NCBI GenBank assembly: GCA_947491225.1
Contig: CANLIE010000014.1
Coordinates: 1-64,000, forward strand
From: an uncultured Cellulophaga sp.
GTDB taxonomy: Bacteria > Bacteroidota > Bacteroidia > Flavobacteriales > Flavobacteriaceae
Direction of reading: 5' to 3'
Length of the DNA stretch: 64,000 bases
In this document: positions 45,839 to 53,837 of the stretch, one piece after another
How positions within the stretch are numbered: position 1 is the stretch's first letter
Layout: each line of letters begins with the position of its first letter
Program-made: the position numbers and the translations under genes
Notes under the pieces: generated by a model
What the model was told of the DNA's origin: nothing
What the model saw: only the letters and a program-made list of their open reading frames with translations
Database searches by the model: none

Positions 45839-45846
45839 CAAATGTA
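45839..45846 (-). promoter_or_regulatory. Probable -7 box of pyrE overlapping the NUDIX start codon
   Basis: TACATTTG on the minus strand fits TAnnTTTG, 4 bp from the pyrE ATG and overlapping the ATG of the divergent NUDIX gene at 45842. Confidence 0.45.
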
Positions 45847-46426
45847 TAAAGTTTTTGTGAATGAATTGCCCTTGATTTTAACAAATAAACTCTCGGACAT
45901 TGCAGATAACAAATATTTTTTGTTAAATGAGCAAGCAATTAACGAGGCTATCAAGGCCTTGTCTAAAAATAAATTGCCTAAAGCTTACATATACCATCCT
46001 AATAAAGAGGAAATTCTAAAAAAATTCTCTAAAAAAATACCAATTGTTGTAGCTGGTGGGGGTGTTGTGACGAACAAAGATGGTAAGGTTCTTTTTATTT
46101 ATAGAAATAATAAATGGGATTTGCCTAAGGGTAAAATTGATAAAGGAGAAACAATTGAGGAGTGTGCTATTAGAGAAGTAGAGGAAGAAACTGGAGTACA
46201 AGGATTAAAAATTGAAAACATTCTAAAGACAACGTATCATATTTTTAAGCGTAATGGTAAATACAAGCTTAAAGAGGTGCATTGGTTTGCTATGAAGACT
46301 TCTTATAAAGGAAAGCTTATAGGTCAGGAAAATGAAGGTATAGAGAAGGTAAAGTGGAAAGGGCCTGATAAAATAGCTAAGGCTTTAGAGAATTCCTATA
46401 TAAATATTAGGATTTTGTTTGAGTAG
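45842..46426 (+). CDS. NUDIX hydrolase
   Basis: A 194-residue protein. The first 70 residues are an N-terminal domain of unknown role. The NUDIX domain follows, with the full box GKIDKGETIEECAIREVEEETGVQ fitting G-x5-E-x7-REUxEExGU, with catalytic Glu residues in REVEEE. Substrate is probably a nucleoside diphosphate derivative. It starts 7 bp from divergent pyrE. The IS1595 element is inserted about 40 bp after its stop. Confidence 0.88.
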   Translation: MYKVFVNELPLILTNKLSDIADNKYFLLNEQAINEAIKALSKNKLPKAYIYHPNKEEILKKFSKKIPIVVAGGGVVTNKDGKVLFIYRNNKWDLPKGKIDKGETIEECAIREVEEETGVQGLKIENILKTTYHIFKRNGKYKLKEVHWFAMKTSYKGKLIGQENEGIEKVKWKGPDKIAKALENSYINIRILFE

Positions 46427-46457
46427 GAGTAAGTTACTCTGCTTTTGGATAGAAATT

Positions 46458-46465
46458 AAAGTTTT
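46458..46465 (+). repeat. Left target-site duplication of the IS element
   Basis: AAAGTTTT, repeated exactly at 47451-47458, flanks the IS1595 element. An 8-bp duplication is typical of the family. Confidence 0.85.
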
Positions 46466-47450
46466 AATGCTTATCCGTAAGTTTCCCCAAGATAATTCCA
46501 TCTATATGACACTGCTGCTATCATCATTCTATCGAATAGGTCATCAAAGTAACGTCTGTTGAATTTATAACAGAATTCATTGAGATAATTCTGTAAAAAG
46601 TCATCATCTATTCTGTGGTGCACATCCAAGAACAACCTTTTGGCATTGCTTATAGCAGTATGTACCCATGGTAAGACCTTTACAAGATCCTTTTTGGAGA
46701 TGACCTTGGACTCGATTTCAAAGTCCTTTTCTAAATCCACATAGCTGTTAGACTTGTCTGCCACTATTTTTGTGTTCTTCTCTACAGATTTTGTGATCTT
46801 ATCGGTTATGCATTTCTTTTTCAAAGATTCCACAACTTTCATTTTTAAATATCCTACCTTTTTCTGCTTACTATGCTTTTTAGGATCATAGTCATCTCCA
46901 GCATCTTTAGATTCAACACTTACTAGGACTGTGGTTTGACGTTGGCTACCCCGTCAACGCTTTAATGGTTCAGATTTATCCATTGTTATAGAGACAGTCT
47001 CAAAAAAACCTTCATCCAGTTCTATTTCTTCCTTTAAAATATACTCATCATCCCTGAGTCCCATAACACTTCTTAACTTGTGCATCATCGCCCAGATAGG
47101 CTCATAGCGTTTATGACCTAACTGACGCTGGACTTCCTTTGCTGAAAACGACTTCTTGGTACTGGTAAGAAGGTGCATAGCAATGAACCAATACAGAAAA
47201 GGCAATTTACTACCGTGCATCACTGTTCCACTTTTCAAAGTAGTACGGTGTTTACATTCCCATTGCTTGCGATATTGTTTCCAATAATGAGAGGTGCAAC
47301 CACACTTTTTACAAGTAATGCCTTGTTTTATCCTGTAGGATTTAAAAGCTGATTTACAACTTTGCTCATCAGGAAAATACTTTGTGAATTCTAATAATTT
47401 CATACCTTAAAATACGAAATATTTACTAGGGAAACTAGCGGGCAAGTATA
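46466..47450 (-). mobile_element. IS1595-family insertion sequence, 985 bp
   Basis: Ends form imperfect inverted repeats: the left has CTTATCCGTAAGTTTCCCC (46470-46488) and the right, read inward, CTTGCCCGCTAGTTTCCCT (47428-47446), 14 of 19 matching. A perfect 8-bp direct repeat AAAGTTTT flanks the element. It contains one transposase frame on the minus strand. Length and duplication fit IS1595. It is inserted between the NUDIX gene and the bacteriocin locus. Confidence 0.9.
46471..47403 (-). pseudogene. IS1595 transposase with one nonsense codon
   Basis: A 310-codon frame split by TGA at 46954-46956. The 149 residues before it hold the N-terminal zinc ribbon (CKKCGCTSHYWKQYRKQWEC, with the second pair partly changed) and the first acidic residue of the ISXO2-like domain (EIELDEGFFE). 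The frame resumes at once with RGSQRQTTVLVSVESKD and the rest of the catalytic core. Both parts are in the same frame, so a single point change explains the break. Confidence 0.88.
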
Positions 47451-47458
47451 AAAGTTTT
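47451..47458 (+). repeat. Right target-site duplication of the IS element
   Basis: AAAGTTTT, identical to 46458-46465. Confidence 0.85.
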
Positions 47459-47725
47459 TATTTATTCTAATCTAAATTATAGGAAAAAAAACTTGCAATA
47501 CAATTGTGTAATACATCAGCTATCATATATGTTTAGGTGATAATATTACGCCTTCTTATTTTTCACTATATAGCAGCCTATGTAAAACAACACATACAGC
47601 TAATTTAATTATTTACCATGATCATTGTTTTATCTCTACAGTATTTGACTTCATTAGTGGTATTTGTTATGTCATTAAAAAAGTAAAAAAAATGTATTTA
47701 TTTTTTTATTTAAGAGTATTTTTCT
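47459..47725. other. Non-coding stretch between the IS element and the bacteriocin promoter
   Basis: Very AT-rich with poly-T and poly-A runs. No convincing ORF or RNA was seen. It may contain far-upstream regulatory sites for the peptide genes. Confidence 0.5.
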
Positions 47726-47733
47726 TATGTTTG
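47726..47733 (+). promoter_or_regulatory. Probable -7 box of the bacteriocin operon
   Basis: TATGTTTG fits TAnnTTTG, about 98 bp before the first peptide ATG. Its last base is the first base of a 23-bp palindrome. No clear -33 TTG. Confidence 0.45.
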
Positions 47734-47755
47734 ATTGTCAAATAATTTGACAATC
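47733..47755. promoter_or_regulatory. Perfect 23-bp palindrome, candidate operator
   Basis: Arms GATTGTCAAAT and ATTTGACAATC with one central A. It directly follows the promoter-like box, where a bound regulator would block transcription start. No T-run follows, so a terminator is less likely. Confidence 0.6.
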
Positions 47756-47830
47756 ATTGCTATTTATTATGGTAATGGTATGTTTTAACTTAATAATTTA
47801 TGTTTTTATAAAAAATTAGAATTGAATCAG

Positions 47831-47989
47831 ATGGAGAACCTACAAGGTGGGAGCCAACCTGTTACCCCCGCTTTTGCATTCACATGTGGTCTTGGGATGG
47901 CCACGGCTGTACTCGGATTTGCAGTTTTGGGTCCAGTAGCATTGCTTGGCTTGGCATTATGTTTTAACGGTGATGAAAGCGATAGATAA
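47831..47989 (+). CDS. Bacteriocin-like peptide 1 with double-glycine leader
   Basis: From the ATG at 47831 the peptide has 52 residues with GG at positions 6-7. Cleavage after GG gives a 45-residue mature part (starting SQPVTPAFAFTCGLG) that is Gly/Ala/Leu-rich and hydrophobic, with Cys12 and Cys37 and an acidic tail. Upstream, the same frame reads KKLELNQ in front of MENLQGG, a common Bacteroidetes leader pattern, but no ATG precedes it. TTG at 47822 is a possible start. The C39-type exporter at 49898-52075 is the expected processing enzyme. Class II bacteriocin identity is inferred. Confidence 0.75.
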   Translation: MENLQGGSQPVTPAFAFTCGLGMATAVLGFAVLGPVALLGLALCFNGDESDR

Positions 47990-48005
47990 TCATTAAAAAT
48001 AAAAT

Positions 48006-48188
48006 ATGAAAACAATAGACAATTATAATATGGAATTAATAAGAGGTGGAAATGAAGTCGATGATGCTTTTATTGCTGGGTTAACATGTGGCGCTGCAAT
48101 CTTCATGCCTTCTGTAAATGGTTTTGCGCGTTTATTTGGGCGAGCTATTCCAATTTTATCATGTATAAATTATATAACTTCTCATTGA
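48006..48188 (+). CDS. Bacteriocin-like peptide 2 with double-glycine leader
   Basis: A 60-residue peptide with leader MKTIDNYNMELIRGG and a predicted 45-residue mature part (starting NEVDDAFIAGLTCG). Cys13 and Cys38 have the same 24-residue spacing as in peptide 1, and TCG is shared. Two GG-leader peptides 16 bp apart suggest a two-component bacteriocin. It is distinguished from random small ORFs by the GG site, the conserved pair of cysteines and the exporter downstream. Confidence 0.78.
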   Translation: MKTIDNYNMELIRGGNEVDDAFIAGLTCGAAIFMPSVNGFARLFGRAIPILSCINYITSH

Positions 48189-48209
48189 GAAATGAAGAAT
48201 AATTAATTA

Positions 48210-48239
48210 TAAGCTGGTTCTAGATTTAGAGCCAGCTTA
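48210..48239 (+). terminator. Hairpin after the peptide genes, candidate attenuator
   Basis: Stem TAAGCTGGTTCTA / TTAGAGCCAGCTTA with a 3-base loop and one wobble pair, 21 bp after peptide 2. No long T-run, so it may only partly stop transcription or protect the upstream mRNA. Confidence 0.55.
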
Positions 48240-48268
48240 TTAATAAAATTAAAGTATGTATAAAAAGT

Positions 48269-48457
48269 ATGTATAATAAATTTTCAATTTTTTTTTTCAA
48301 TATTATATTAATCATTGTGGTTTTTAAATCTTCTTATTCAATATATATCAATAATGATTATGGTGTGAAATCAAATTTTATTAATTACCTAATTATTTTC
48401 TTTTACTTCTGCTATTTGTTTATGTTGTTAAAAAAAACAATTGAAAGGAAAAATTGA
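48269..48457 (+). CDS. Small membrane protein, candidate bacteriocin immunity protein
   Basis: 62 residues with two hydrophobic helices (about 5-24 and 38-55) and a basic C-terminus (KKTIERKN). No known family. Small two-helix proteins next to class II bacteriocin genes often give self-protection, so immunity is the best guess. Base composition is low in GC even for this window. Confidence 0.55.
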   Translation: MYNKFSIFFFNIILIIVVFKSSYSIYINNDYGVKSNFINYLIIFFYFCYLFMLLKKTIERKN

Positions 48458-48460
48458 TAT

Positions 48461-49131
48461 ATGTCAAATAATATTTCTAGTATTCTTTTTCGTCTAAAAC
48501 TCAAAACTTCTTCTTTTTTTTATGTTTGTTTTTAATTATATTGTTGTTTGATTTTGTGTCTTCAATGTTGTTGAATACAGAAAATTTATTAACAGAATCT
48601 CTTGCTCAACAATTAACACAACAACAAATAGAAGAGGTCTTAAATTTTCAACAAAAATGGCAATGGTTAGGATATTTGATAGCACCGTTATTATTGTTGC
48701 TAAAAATTTCAATTATAGCGGGCGTATTAGATTTAGGCTGCTTTATTTTTGGAAAGGAAATTAAATATAAAAAGCTCTTTGCTGTTGTTGTTAAAGCTGA
48801 GTTTGTCTTTTTACTTGTTATTGTCTGTAAGACTAGTTGGTTCTATTTTTTTAAAACAGACTATACATTAGAAGATCTCCAATTCTTTTATCCTTTTTCT
48901 ATGTTAAGCATTACAGGCTATGATGGGTTACAGCCTTGGTATATATATCCGTTGCAAGTAGTAAATCTCTTTGAAATTGTGTATTGGATTCTTCTTGCTC
49001 TTATGCTAGACAAACTTTTGAGTACAGCAAAAGATAAAAATACAGGCATTAAAATTGTTGCCAGTAGCTATGGAGTTGGCTTGCTTATCTGGGTAGTGGT
49101 AATTATGTTTTTTACCTTAAATATGAGTTAA
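48461..49131 (+). CDS. Multi-pass membrane protein of the bacteriocin locus, apparent frameshift
   Basis: The main frame (from TTG 48526, 201 residues) has about five hydrophobic segments. No ATG precedes it in frame. An ATG at 48461 in another frame encodes MSNNISSILFRLKLKTSSFF and hits a run of eight Ts (48514-48521). A one-base shift there joins the two frames into one protein of about 223 residues with a natural N-terminal amphipathic helix. So the true gene probably starts at 48461 with a frameshift, read error or slippage. The family resembles membrane proteins found in Bacteroidetes peptide-export loci; role unknown. Confidence 0.6.
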
Positions 49132-49184
49132 AATAGCTGTTGGCTATTGGGAATTATTGTGGAAATTTACAAATCAAAATCTAA

Positions 49185-49700
49185 ATGAAGAAAAAATTAA
49201 AAATAATTATTCCAATTATTGCTTTACTATTGTTGGGGTATTTGGGTTATAAACTTATTACTAAAATACAACAAAAAGAAGAGGTTGCAATTACTTTGCA
49301 AACTGTTCCTAACTTTTTTTTTCAAAACTTGGACAAAACAGAATTCTCGAATAAAAATTTGGAGCAAAACAAAGCAACTATCTTTATTTATTTTAATAGC
49401 GAATGCGACTATTGCCAGCACGAGGCAGAAAACATTGCAGAAAATCTACACCTTTTTAAAGAAGTACAAATTCTTTTTGTTTCAGCAGAACCCATTATTA
49501 CCATAAAAGCATTTGCAGAAAATTACAATTTGAACAAATCAAATAGTGTTAAATTCTTATATGATAATACTGATACTTTTGCTACTAAATTTGATGCGAA
49601 TTCAATTCCTTACATTCTAATTTATAATGTAAATAAAGAATTGGTTAAAAAACAAAAAGGGCAATTAAAAACAACTGCTATTTTAAAGACATTGGAATAA
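49185..49700 (+). CDS. Membrane-anchored thioredoxin-like protein
   Basis: 171 residues: one N-terminal membrane helix (about 5-24), then a TlpA/AhpC-like thioredoxin domain with active-site CDYC (ECDYCQHEAENI, around residue 75) and a cis-proline region NSIPYILIY. It should face the periplasm and handle disulfides. The two peptides in this locus each have two cysteines, so it is a candidate to form or repair their disulfide bond. That link is inference from context. Confidence 0.8.
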   Translation: MKKKLKIIIPIIALLLLGYLGYKLITKIQQKEEVAITLQTVPNFFFQNLDKTEFSNKNLEQNKATIFIYFNSECDYCQHEAENIAENLHLFKEVQILFVSAEPIITIKAFAENYNLNKSNSVKFLYDNTDTFATKFDANSIPYILIYNVNKELVKKQKGQLKTTAILKTLE

Positions 49701-49727
49701 TTCTTCATTTTTTAGACTAAAAATCAG

Positions 49728-49835
49728 TTCGAGTGATTTTCTGTCAGATTGAGCATTGCTGAAATCAAATGTATTTTGATTGAAGGTAGCGAGCAAAGCT
49801 CGTCGAAATCAAATAAAATTGTATCGAAAACCTTT
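49728..49835. repeat. Probable flavobacterial intergenic repeat with hairpin
   Basis: The stretch has CGAGCAAAGCTCG (short hairpin near 49788) plus GTTCGAG and GTATCGA elements typical of dispersed palindromic repeats in Flavobacteriia. Only one copy is in the window, so the repeat status is from memory of similar genomes. Confidence 0.4.
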
Positions 49836-49897
49836 TTAATAATAAGTAATTCTCACTGTTACAAAATAGGTTAATTAAAAATTTTCTCAGCTATTAT

Positions 49898-52075
49898 ATG
49901 AAACCAAGTATTCAAAAAAAGACCCCAAAACAACTCAATAAATCTTTTGTATTGCAACAAGACCAAAGCGACTGCGGTGTAGCTTGCTTACTCTCAGTAA
50001 TCAATTTTTATGAGGGTAGTGGTTCGCTAGAGAAATTGCGGGAACTTAGCGGTACAACAAAACAAGGGACAACCTTATTAGGGCTATACCAAGCAGCAAA
50101 CAGTCTTGGTTTTACCGCAGCTGGCAACGAGGCAGGTATACAAGCGGTTATAGATCATAAAGAGCCGTTAATTCTACACGTTCTACTAGAAGAACGTTTA
50201 CAGCATTATTTGGTTTGCTATGGGTTTAAAGACGGTAAATTTATAATGGGAGACCCTGCAAAGGGAATTGTACATTATACAAAAGAAGAATTAGATACCG
50301 TTTGGAAATCCAAAAGTTGTTTAACGCTCACGCCTAACGAGAATTTTGTTGAGGCTACGGAGATAAAATCTAGCAAAAAAGAATGGTTTTTAAACCTTTT
50401 ACGTGAGGATAAAAAATTATTAAGCTTTAGCGTTTTGTTAGGCTTGGGTATTGCCATTTTAGGAATGGCAATGTCCATATTTTCGCAAAAATTAATAGAT
50501 GAAATTTTACCATCTAAAGATTTATCAAAATTGATAACTGGGATTATCTTGGTTGCTTTTTTATTACTGGTGCGGGTTATGTTTACCGCCTTGCGCGATT
50601 ATTTTTTAATACGCCAAACAAAAGACTTTAACAATAGAATTATTGACAGTTTTTATTCTTCCTTGTTATATCTTCCCAAACCATTTTTTGATACCCGTAA
50701 AATAGGGGAATTGGTAGCAAGACTAAATGATACCCAAAGGGTGCAAAGAGTTATCTCAATGGTTGCTAGTAGCGTTATCATTAACGCCTTGGTGACTGTG
50801 GTTTCTTTAGGCTTTTTGTTTTATTATTCTTGGCAGACGGCTTTAATAGCATTGGTAAGTCTGCCGTTTTACTTTTTATTAATTTATAGTTTTAACAAAC
50901 GTATTATCAATGCCCAAAAAGAAGTAATGCAAGGCTATGCTTTTAACGAAAGTAATTACATAACCTCTATGCAGGGCATAGCCACCATTAAAAACAATAA
51001 TAGGCAGGGTGTTTTTAAACAAATAAACCAACTTATTTATGGTAATTATCAAGAAAAAGCATTTTTACTTGGAAAAATCAATGTACGACTATCTGCGATT
51101 TCAGGTGTGTTCAGCGTACTTTTTTTAATTGGTATTCTGTCTTTTACGGCGATTAGGGTGTATAATGAAACAATGCTTTTAGGAGAGTTAATGGCTATTT
51201 TAGGTATTGCAGGGAGTTTGTTACCGTCCGTTGCAAGTTTGGCGTTGATTAGTATCCCTATAAACGAGGCTAAAGTTGCTTTTAACAGAATGTTTGAGTT
51301 TACTTCCATAGACAAGGAACAAAATGGGGAAACCAAGCTATCAAATTTCAATAGTTTGGAAGTAAAAAACTTATCTTTTCGTTTTGCAGGTCGTAGTCAA
51401 TTACTAAAGGATATTAATTTTCGTTTGGATAAAAATGAATGTATTGCTATTGTAGGAGAAAGCGGTTGTGGTAAAAGTACGCTGGGACAGGTAATTCAAA
51501 AATTTTACCCGTTTGAAAATGGAACGATAATCATAAATAACACTGCCAATCTAGCATCATTAGATACAGAAGATTGGAGAAATATTATTGGGGTTATTCC
51601 GCAAGAAATTACAATTTTTAACGGTACACTTTTAGATAATATTTTATTGGGCAAAGGGGATAAGCCTGAGAATATTGTAAAATTTTGCCGAGATTATGGT
51701 TTTGAACCTTTTATTTCCGATTTACCACAAGGCTACGCCACAATTTTGGGAGAAGAGGGCATAAACTTGTCTGGCGGTCAAAAACAACTTTTAGCATTGA
51801 TACGCATACTTTATAAAAAACCACAATTACTCCTTTTGGATGAATTTACATCTTCTATGGATAGAAAAACAGAAAGCTTTGTGTTGAATTTGTTGCAAAA
51901 ACTAAAACAAGAATTGAGCATTGTTTTTATTTCACACAGATTACATTCCTTAAAACATTTGGCAGACAAAATCTATATTATTGAAAATGGGAATTCCAAT
52001 GTCTTTGGCTCGCACGGGGAATTAATGAAAACAGATAATTTTTACAGTCAGTTTTGGAAAAATTTATTGGATTAA
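49898..52075 (+). CDS. C39-peptidase ABC exporter for GG-leader peptides
   Basis: A 725-residue peptidase-containing ABC transporter. The N-terminal C39 domain (about 15-140) has QSDCGVACLL (Cys26), LQHYLVCYG (His) and MGDPAKG (Asp). Six membrane helices follow (about 170-460). The ATPase domain has Walker A GESGCGKST, signature NLSGGQKQ and Walker B LLLLDE. Such proteins cut leaders after GG and export the mature peptide. It is the last gene of the locus. Gram-negative versions usually need a HlyD-type adaptor, and none is encoded here. Confidence 0.93.
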   Translation: MKPSIQKKTPKQLNKSFVLQQDQSDCGVACLLSVINFYEGSGSLEKLRELSGTTKQGTTLLGLYQAANSLGFTAAGNEAGIQAVIDHKEPLILHVLLEERLQHYLVCYGFKDGKFIMGDPAKGIVHYTKEELDTVWKSKSCLTLTPNENFVEATEIKSSKKEWFLNLLREDKKLLSFSVLLGLGIAILGMAMSIFSQKLIDEILPSKDLSKLITGIILVAFLLLVRVMFTALRDYFLIRQTKDFNNRIIDSFYSSLLYLPKPFFDTRKIGELVARLNDTQRVQRVISMVASSVIINALVTVVSLGFLFYYSWQTALIALVSLPFYFLLIYSFNKRIINAQKEVMQGYAFNESNYITSMQGIATIKNNNRQGVFKQINQLIYGNYQEKAFLLGKINVRLSAISGVFSVLFLIGILSFTAIRVYNETMLLGELMAILGIAGSLLPSVASLALISIPINEAKVAFNRMFEFTSIDKEQNGETKLSNFNSLEVKNLSFRFAGRSQLLKDINFRLDKNECIAIVGESGCGKSTLGQVIQKFYPFENGTIIINNTANLASLDTEDWRNIIGVIPQEITIFNGTLLDNILLGKGDKPENIVKFCRDYGFEPFISDLPQGYATILGEEGINLSGGQKQLLALIRILYKKPQLLLLDEFTSSMDRKTESFVLNLLQKLKQELSIVFISHRLHSLKHLADKIYIIENGNSNVFGSHGELMKTDNFYSQFWKNLLD

Positions 52076-52094
52076 ATCTGCAATTAAATCTCCT

Positions 52095-53837
52095 TTATTT
52101 CAAAACCCGATACACAGGATATTGTAAATGTGCTTTTTCATAATGCTCAGATTTTTTGTGCAACCAATCTAGCTGTGCGTACCAATTGTTGGCAAAATTT
52201 TCATCTTCAGTTTTTAACTGATCAAAATCTGCTTTAAGCACTGGATTATTTTTTAATAGTTTTGCTGCTACGTCTTCAAAAACATACGGAGAAAAACCTT
52301 CTTTTTGTTGTAAAATAGTATCAAAAAAATTCCAATTAAAAAAAGAATCAATTGCTTCTGGTTCTAGAGTTTCTAATAGGTAACGTATACCTCTTTGATT
52401 GGTTGATATATAAAAATCACCTTTGCGGAATTGTATGTTTTCAATTGTAGGGGATACTTTTGTGTTGTTATGTGGGTAATGACCTTCGTAAGCATTTTTC
52501 CGTGTTTGGTAATTTTCTATTTTGTATGATTCTACTTTAATGATAGTATCCTTTTCCAGTGTTTTGTATTCTATGTTGTTGGCATTTAAAAGAGGCATTA
52601 TTTTATGCCATCCTTTAGGTATGATGTATGCGCTAGGTATTGTAACACTGTTGGTTACCTTCATATGATTTTTGTAGATGACTTCTCTAGTAAATGGTCT
52701 AGTTTTATCATATTTTAAACGCTGTAAGCCCGTAACTTCACTTGGTATTCTATCTGCTTCATACCCTTTAAAGTTTAAAATGGATGTTTGTGTGGTATCT
52801 ATTGTAAAGTGTAATGGATAAGTTTCGTTTAATTTGTGAGTTACAAAAGCTTCATTACGTAATTCTTTTATTTTTTGTCCATCTCTTTCAGTGATGTCAA
52901 TCATTTTTTGCAGAAGATAATATGTCCCCATAACTCGTTTTTTATAAGGTTTAAGCATATGTGTTTCTACCATCATACCCAAAGTATTCCATAATGTAGT
53001 ATAACCTGTGGAATATCTAGGATAGTCCATAAATTGGGAAAACCCTTTTTCAGGAGTACTATTAAAAACATTGACATATGGTGTTATATCCCAATTTATT
53101 TTTTCTAATGCCGTTTCTAAAGAAGGCATCATCTCTGTATGTAGATAATTACCCAGTTTACCACCCAGTTTATTGTGTTGGGTAAACAAATGTGTTAATG
53201 TATACTGATAATCTGCGCCATTACTAACATGATTGTCTATAAATACATCAGGATTTGTTAAATGAAAGATTGTGGCAAATGTTTTAGCATTTTTAGTGTC
53301 ACTTTTAATAAAATCTCTATTGAGGTCATAGTTTTGTGCATTGCCTCTAAAACCATAATTTTTTGGACCATTTTGGTTGGTTCTGGAATTGGAGTTTCTA
53401 TTTAATGCGCCTCCTATATTGTAAATTGGGATAGTAGCTAAAACAGTATTTTTAGGAGTTTTTATTTTTTTTATAGCCAGATCTCTGTATAACAATATTG
53501 TGGCGTCTATACCGTCACTTTCTCCAGGGTGTATTCCATTATTTATTAAAATGACGTTTTTTTCTTTGTTTATTTTTTTAAAATTAAAGTCACCGTCTGG
53601 GTTGTATGTGACTAAGTGTAATGGAAATCCGCTATCAGTTTCACCTATTGTACGAACATTTATTTCTGGAAATTCTTTTGCCAATTTAATATAAAAACTT
53701 ATTACCTCTTGGTAGGTTGGTGTTTCTAAACCGTTGCTGGTTTCAAAAAAAGTTTGGAAATCTTTTTCCTTATCTTCTGGGTTTTCACTGCAAGCAGCAA
53801 GTAATAATATGCAAAAAAGCCAAATTGTATTTTTCAT
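52095..53837 (-). CDS. M14-family zinc carboxypeptidase lipoprotein
   Basis: A 580-residue secreted protein with lipobox LAAC16. The M14 zinc site starts with NNGIHPGESDGID (His103, Glu106), followed by NYDLNRDFIK and the third ligand in FIDNHVSNGADY. The long C-terminal half (about 340-580) is not the usual carboxypeptidase fold and may bind substrate. The expected product is an outer-membrane or periplasmic peptidase. It follows coaD by 18 bp. Confidence 0.85.
   Translation of the reverse strand: MKNTIWLFCILLLAACSENPEDKEKDFQTFFETSNGLETPTYQEVISFYIKLAKEFPEINVRTIGETDSGFPLHLVTYNPDGDFNFKKINKEKNVILINNGIHPGESDGIDATILLYRDLAIKKIKTPKNTVLATIPIYNIGGALNRNSNSRTNQNGPKNYGFRGNAQNYDLNRDFIKSDTKNAKTFATIFHLTNPDVFIDNHVSNGADYQYTLTHLFTQHNKLGGKLGNYLHTEMMPSLETALEKINWDITPYVNVFNSTPEKGFSQFMDYPRYSTGYTTLWNTLGMMVETHMLKPYKKRVMGTYYLLQKMIDITERDGQKIKELRNEAFVTHKLNETYPLHFTIDTTQTSILNFKGYEADRIPSEVTGLQRLKYDKTRPFTREVIYKNHMKVTNSVTIPSAYIIPKGWHKIMPLLNANNIEYKTLEKDTIIKVESYKIENYQTRKNAYEGHYPHNNTKVSPTIENIQFRKGDFYISTNQRGIRYLLETLEPEAIDSFFNWNFFDTILQQKEGFSPYVFEDVAAKLLKNNPVLKADFDQLKTEDENFANNWYAQLDWLHKKSEHYEKAHLQYPVYRVLK

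Follow-up and report, generated by a model that had tools for sequence, protein, structure and literature searches.

The analysed stretch of DNA (hereafter the window) comprises 64,000 nucleotides from an uncultured Cellulophaga sp. (assembly GCA_947491225.1, contig CANLIE010000014.1) and contains, between positions 47726 and 52075, an acquired cluster that probably enables this flavobacterium to produce and export two small peptides inhibiting rival bacteria, next to a likely self-protection gene. All six genes lie on the + strand at the positions reported in an initial annotation of the sequence. The alpha peptide precursor (P1, 47822-47989) has a double-glycine (GG) leader, TTG as its only in-frame start and a mature part of 45 residues with cysteines at 12 and 37 (...KKLELNQMENLQGG). 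The beta precursor (P2, 48006-48188) combines a 15-residue GG leader with a mature part of equal length and cysteines at 13 and 38 (MKTIDNYNMELIRGG). The window sequence thus confirms what the initial annotation had described, i.e., two adjoining GG-leader peptides, each with a 45-residue mature part, C-x24-C and a TCG motif. They are followed by an open reading frame (ORF) for a small protein with two transmembrane (TM) segments, a candidate immunity protein (48269-48457), by the multi-pass membrane protein of the exporter module (TM protein, 48526-49131), by a membrane-anchored thioredoxin-like protein with a CDYC motif, presumed to form disulfides (49185-49700; AhpC-TSA, E value 3.5e-12; ResA-like, 8e-12), and by a C39-peptidase ABC exporter (49898-52075; Pfam Peptidase_C39, E value 2.3e-28, together with ABC_membrane and ABC_tran). 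Coordinates and Pfam matches agree with the downstream gene order proposed earlier. As for P1, P2 and the small protein, no relevant Pfam or NCBIfam family was found, just weak unrelated matches with E values up to 1. The TM protein matches NCBIfam YknW weakly (E value 3.9e-6), and this identity was not adopted: the score of 26.5 bits is under the cut-off of 110, and 2 of 15 relatives match.

Matches to the window TM protein were found in 8 of 299 genomes of the family, and a profile of it matched 20 of 395 genomes of the class, 10 of which hold this kind of cluster (the window's own genome is included in both cases). Among the 20, a C39 exporter is adjacent in 9, TM and thioredoxin-like genes stand at a contig end in 1, and such an exporter is missing in 10. 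Half of the class-search matches were thus something other than this system. A scan of named-species genomes gave 134 relatives, of which the best 80 were kept (Flavobacterium, Aquimarina, Tenacibaculum, Winogradskyella, Kordia, Capnocytophaga, Spirosoma and others). Removal of 8 duplicates from 95 clusters left 87 non-redundant ones. Within 238,018 bases upstream of their TM genes (at most 3 kilobases each), the leader-peptide caller made 94 strong calls, all of them on the coding strand (0 on the opposite one), so the leader peptides are more than chance. At least one is present within 3 kilobases upstream of the TM gene in 74 of the 87 clusters, and an adjacent pair in 20. Longer arrays were also observed. 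L065 (4403-5803) has six consecutive GG-leader peptides ahead of the same kind of module, five of them with 4 cysteines, and so amounts to a multi-peptide arsenal. L092 and L094 (Aquimarina) carry, up to 4 kilobases upstream of the TM gene, arrays in which 15-residue leaders with two-cysteine peptides are mixed with 23-residue KKLSLKKMNVAQL leaders with peptides of 3-5 cysteines.

A beta profile, built from 13 P2-like peptides with the seed picked partly from visible pairs, finds relatives in 19 distinct loci; beta is preceded by an alpha peptide in 17, at a distance of 3-34 nucleotides. The two loci with no alpha seen are L028, which has a decayed leader, and L146, where a broken beta lies 312 bases from the contig start. 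Among the 6 beta loci outside the profile seed, 5 have alpha and the sixth holds a broken beta near a contig end; with the automatic caller alone, 16 of 18 beta loci show an adjacent pair. Homologous pairs near C39 exporters, whose absence would have spoken against the initial annotation, are present in 16 loci besides the window, always upstream of the same module, and the proposed pairing of P1 with P2 is borne out by an uncultured Aquimarina (L091) that carries relatives of both peptides (60% identity for alpha, 80% for beta and 37% for the small protein). Its ABC protein is 66% identical to that of the window; L081 reaches 77%, yet its peptides are just 31% identical. Comparison of the loci indicates that the pairing is conserved rather than due to chance, and that related paired clusters occur in other Bacteroidota.

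All 17 paired loci have an equivalent of the small protein, a hydrophobic ORF of 49-65 residues that starts 2-145 nucleotides downstream of beta, with two predicted membrane segments in 16 loci and three in one. Its tail is basic, with a mean charge of +2.3 over the last 12 residues. The window protein and its L091 counterpart align with a score of 104, the maximum among 2000 shuffles being 39. According to an automatic test, a small two-TM ORF stands between peptide and TM gene in 37 of 68 peptide-bearing clusters versus 2 of 68 on the reverse strand; L091 was omitted from parts of the spacing, small-ORF and robustness tests. Since its position, membrane nature and divergence fit, the small protein is best read as a candidate immunity protein. 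The order of genes in the paired loci is that of two-peptide bacteriocins with a single immunity gene. In Capnocytophaga periodontitidis (L089, 7393-7844), two near-identical small two-TM ORFs were observed after a single peptide within the exporter module.

Co-variation of sequence similarity was computed over 16 loci, with L137 dropped for its split ABC frame. Alignments A4-A6 also cover 16 loci, L031 being left out. Alpha co-varies with beta (rho 0.36, P 0.003) and with the small protein (rho 0.32, P 0.001), and the TM protein with the ABC protein (rho 0.43, P 0.001), while neither peptide tracks the TM protein (rho -0.10 for alpha and -0.09 for beta). Without the window's two nearest relatives, the values are 0.40 for alpha-beta (P 0.007), 0.30 for alpha-small (P 0.018) and 0.16 for beta-small (P 0.15). 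On the exporter tree (35 rows; L133 fell out), paired and single-peptide clusters are interleaved, e.g., L116 (pair) groups with L107 (single) with support 100/100. Because the peptides co-vary, do not track the TM protein and belong to clusters that mix on this tree, the simplest reading of the alignments is that a cargo cassette is exchanged on a conserved exporter. These data also bear on another account, in which P1 and P2 are two independent one-peptide bacteriocins of the bacteroidetocin type, chance neighbours sharing one exporter. The same exporter often accompanies a single peptide, and arrays such as the six leader peptides of L065 exist. However, alpha precedes beta in fixed order and at short distance across the 17 loci (L150 being, by eye, a possible exception to the order), one small membrane ORF accompanies both peptides, and alpha and beta co-vary, so that chance neighbourhood appears unlikely.

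The cysteine spacing is less regular than the window suggests. The match emphasised in the initial annotation holds for P1 and P2 themselves and fails as a family rule: first-to-last spacing is equal in 3 of 17 pairs, namely those of the window and of its Aquimarina relative plus a further one with 43/43, and in 2 of 16 (permutation P 0.19) when the Aquimarina relative is left out. Spacings and lengths of the partners do correlate (rho 0.66 and 0.69, n=17), but support declines to P about 0.08 once related pairs are merged (n=8) and to P 0.15 and 0.27 at n=6. The C-x24-C match was rejected as a structural rule, the spacing ranging from 19 to 53 over 98 distinct two-cysteine peptides. Alpha is enriched in glycines at i,i+4 (46 versus 29.8 +/- 4.4 in shuffled sequences, 0/2000), beta more weakly so (35 versus 26.4 +/- 4.2, P 0.025), and alpha spacings of 7 and 8 are mildly raised (P 0.018 and 0.026, respectively), all with relatives not down-weighted. 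GxxxG is found in all 17 beta peptides and in 14 of the 17 alpha ones. Such i,i+4 glycine motifs are reported, in the available text of the respective papers, for class IIb bacteriocins (PMC6957408) and for Cdz proteins (PMC5380434). AlphaFold models beta as two helices (predicted local distance difference test, pLDDT, 70.2; predicted template modelling score, pTM, 0.37) and alpha as one long helix (76.6 and 0.32, respectively). This confidence is too weak for the models to be of use in any argument on disulfides or pairing. The thioredoxin-like gene would fit a disulfide in the peptides.

As for the genomic setting, the cluster belongs to an inserted stretch (46427-52094, no strand) between a NUDIX gene (45842-46426) and a conserved 580-residue gene (52095-53837), which are neighbours in congeners. 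Measured between matched ends, these two genes are separated by 15-39 nucleotides in all 17 of the other genus genomes and by 5,674 nucleotides in the window. At the left edge of the insertion lies a split IS1595-family transposase remnant on the - strand (46471-47403, in two parts, 46471-46842 and 46954-47403), and the TM protein is present in 1 of 18 genus genomes, the window's own. Given the near-contiguous flanks in congeners, the single occurrence in the genus and the split transposase, genome comparison identifies the cluster as an acquisition, inserted between two neighbouring genes.

By its gene set, the cluster is of the bacteroidetocin type. Bacteroidetocin clusters (class IIf; Coyne et al. 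2019, PMC6671954; PMC8546649), as far as the available text of these papers describes them, share with the window a multi-TM protein, a thiol oxidoreductase, a C39 ABC exporter and Bacteroidota hosts, as well as the 15-residue GG leader (that of P2), mature parts of 42-53 residues and at least 2 cysteines. Bacteroidetocins kill Bacteroidota, and their target is BamA. The three neighbour genes that mark class IIf are all present in the window cluster. Regarding the leader of 15-16 residues, the small mature peptide and at least 2 cysteines, P2 agrees with the class, and the P1 leader counts 10 residues from TTG. The dedicated exporter proposed for the pair is upheld, the module itself being of the known kind found in bacteroidetocin clusters (PMC6671954). 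The same source states that in Bacteroides knock-outs the peptide, TM and oxidoreductase genes are needed for full toxin activity, and that the four genes of the cluster suffice in Escherichia coli. In contrast to the four-cysteine bacteroidetocins A and B described there, the window peptides are hydrophobic, have 2 cysteines each and come as two in fixed order; they also precede the TM gene, and a small two-TM ORF is present, whereas no immunity gene was found in Bacteroides. The TM profile also finds L034, L078 and L079, where four-cysteine peptides starting with lysine stand behind a TM gene of the same family (ABC identity to the window 31% for L078, 49% for L079, and 44% and 61% for the two pieces of L034). 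In L079 (5504-5920), two tandem four-cysteine bacteroidetocin-like peptides with KFWG and KFFG starts are seen behind the TM gene.

Two further systems are similar in layout. According to the available text of PMC6957408, class IIb two-peptide bacteriocins of Gram-positive bacteria are encoded as an adjacent pair with leaders, carry motifs of the GxxxG type and come with an immunity protein that contains TM segments; short members of 42-55 residues exist. The window pair, too, consists of two adjacent, different leader peptides that are kept together (17 of 19 beta loci). GxxxG-type motifs are frequent in the family yet absent from the window's alpha, and the small two-TM ORF is a candidate for the immunity protein. 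In contrast to class IIb, the window host is Gram-negative, each peptide has two cysteines, and the cluster includes a thiol oxidoreductase and an extra TM protein. The likeness to a class IIb pair is one of layout and composition, and membership would hinge on joint activity. The contact-dependent glycine-zipper system Cdz of Caulobacter (available text of PMC5380434) likewise combines two small glycine-zipper proteins, an ABC exporter and a small membrane immunity protein, with a patchy, transposase-flanked distribution among relatives. However, Cdz proteins have 84-86 residues, the published search filtered out zippers interrupted by cysteine, and the Cdz cluster contains an adaptor gene (CdzB) in place of which the window has the thioredoxin-like and multi-TM proteins. 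The cysteine-free zipper and the HlyD-type adaptor next to the ABC gene that characterise Cdz are both absent here, each window peptide having 2 cysteines and no adaptor being found among the cluster ORFs. A literature search of titles and abstract openings found no described two-peptide system of Bacteroidetes, which does not prove its absence from print.

The best explanation, and a fairly probable one, appears to be an acquired bacteroidetocin-type cluster with a two-peptide bacteriocin as its cargo. In the proposed mechanism, the C39 domain would cut the alpha and beta leaders after GG and the ABC protein would export both peptides, assisted by the membrane protein, while the thioredoxin-like protein would close one disulfide in each. 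Together, these helical peptides, both hydrophobic and rich in glycine, might then hit the envelope of competing, probably related, Bacteroidota, with the small two-TM protein shielding the producer. C39 exporters of Gram-positive bacteria also process signal peptides, and the pair might accordingly be pheromones, exported and cleaved by this exporter, with no antibacterial role. However, no sensor or regulator gene is found in the inserted stretch, and the high sequence variability, the membrane-active composition and the small basic-tailed membrane ORF suit a toxin with its immunity protein. Moreover, the Bacteroides relatives of the exporter are described as exporting killers (available text of PMC6671954), and a signalling role seems very improbable.

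Several observations weigh against the two-peptide bacteriocin. Many clusters are single-peptide, pairs being limited to the 20 of 87 counted above, and alpha-like peptides may act alone. Co-variation of beta with the small protein is weak (rho 0.20, P 0.06). The latter tracks the ABC protein as well (rho 0.34, P 0.007) and, faintly, the TM protein (rho 0.16, P 0.046). The automatic test shows no small two-TM ORF in 31 of 68 clusters; one of these negatives is L137, a paired locus, yet its small ORF was seen in the locus-by-locus comparison. In Bacteroides, bacteroidetocin producers self-inhibit and no immunity gene was found, according to the available text of PMC6671954. GxxxG is absent from the alpha peptides of the window and of its Aquimarina relative, and the AlphaFold models, at middling confidence, place no disulfide. 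Finally, P1 lacks the ATG carried at this place by 15 of 17 alpha peptides, its first in-frame start being the TTG at 47822, which leaves a 10-residue leader, and the TM gene has no in-frame ATG either: its longest in-frame start is TTG, and the first ATG upstream (48462) is out of frame.

Because the alpha gene lacks the ATG usual in relatives, the window copy is perhaps impaired, and alpha may be poorly translated. This might reflect decaying cargo, i.e., an exporter that was retained while the peptide pair is no longer made in the window's genome, an account that is limited to the window copy and compatible with a two-peptide bacteriocin. Besides both starts, it is favoured by the split transposase adjoining the cluster and by a clearly decayed copy in G071, where the peptide leader is broken and the ABC gene split (P2 is 58% identical to this copy). 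However, the mature parts, P2, the thioredoxin-like and the ABC genes are intact open frames strongly conserved in Aquimarina, and the L129 alpha leader likewise has just 10 residues, although from ATG. Moreover, small sequence errors are possible, since the genome is a draft (3.59 Mb in 366 contigs). Decay is thus a serious possibility, though the less probable one; the odd starts of P1 and the TM gene may stem from errors in the draft, from real damage or from the use of non-standard start codons, and intact relatives exist.

What differs from known bacteroidetocin clusters is the cargo, which probably represents a two-peptide, immunity-bearing branch. Among Bacteroidetes peptide toxins, those with published tests, four bacteroidetocins, act as single peptides with no immunity gene found, according to the available text of PMC8546649. 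If the reading is true, the alpha-beta-small-protein cassette in the same exporter setting is a two-component version with self-protection, which would offer a tractable system for membrane-active pairs crossing the Gram-negative envelope, as well as a ready-made set of natural cassettes from which narrow-spectrum agents might be developed. In a broader version, class IIf would include a two-peptide branch with immunity genes that is widespread in Bacteroidota, in which disulfide-closed glycine-zipper alpha and beta kill in obligate combination and the alpha-beta-immunity cassette moves independently between exporter modules; the odds for this version seem about even.

As for minor features, the 580-residue flanking gene has no Pfam match and presumably resembles an M14-type peptidase. 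Upstream of alpha, two perfectly complementary arms of 11 bases flank a loop of 3 bases (47732-47756, no strand), an inverted repeat that is a possible operator. Apart from copies of the window stretch, its ten-base arms are paired nowhere else in the fetched loci, and a shared operator for the family was rejected, the repeat being confined to the window. A Paludibacter metagenome-assembled genome contig matches Flavobacterium frigoris in peptide and gene offsets (L100/L101), perhaps through a binning error. Finally, the window's genome carries a second exporter module (L026, contig 68, 61-3372), whose ABC protein is 77% identical and whose contig start cuts before any peptide gene.

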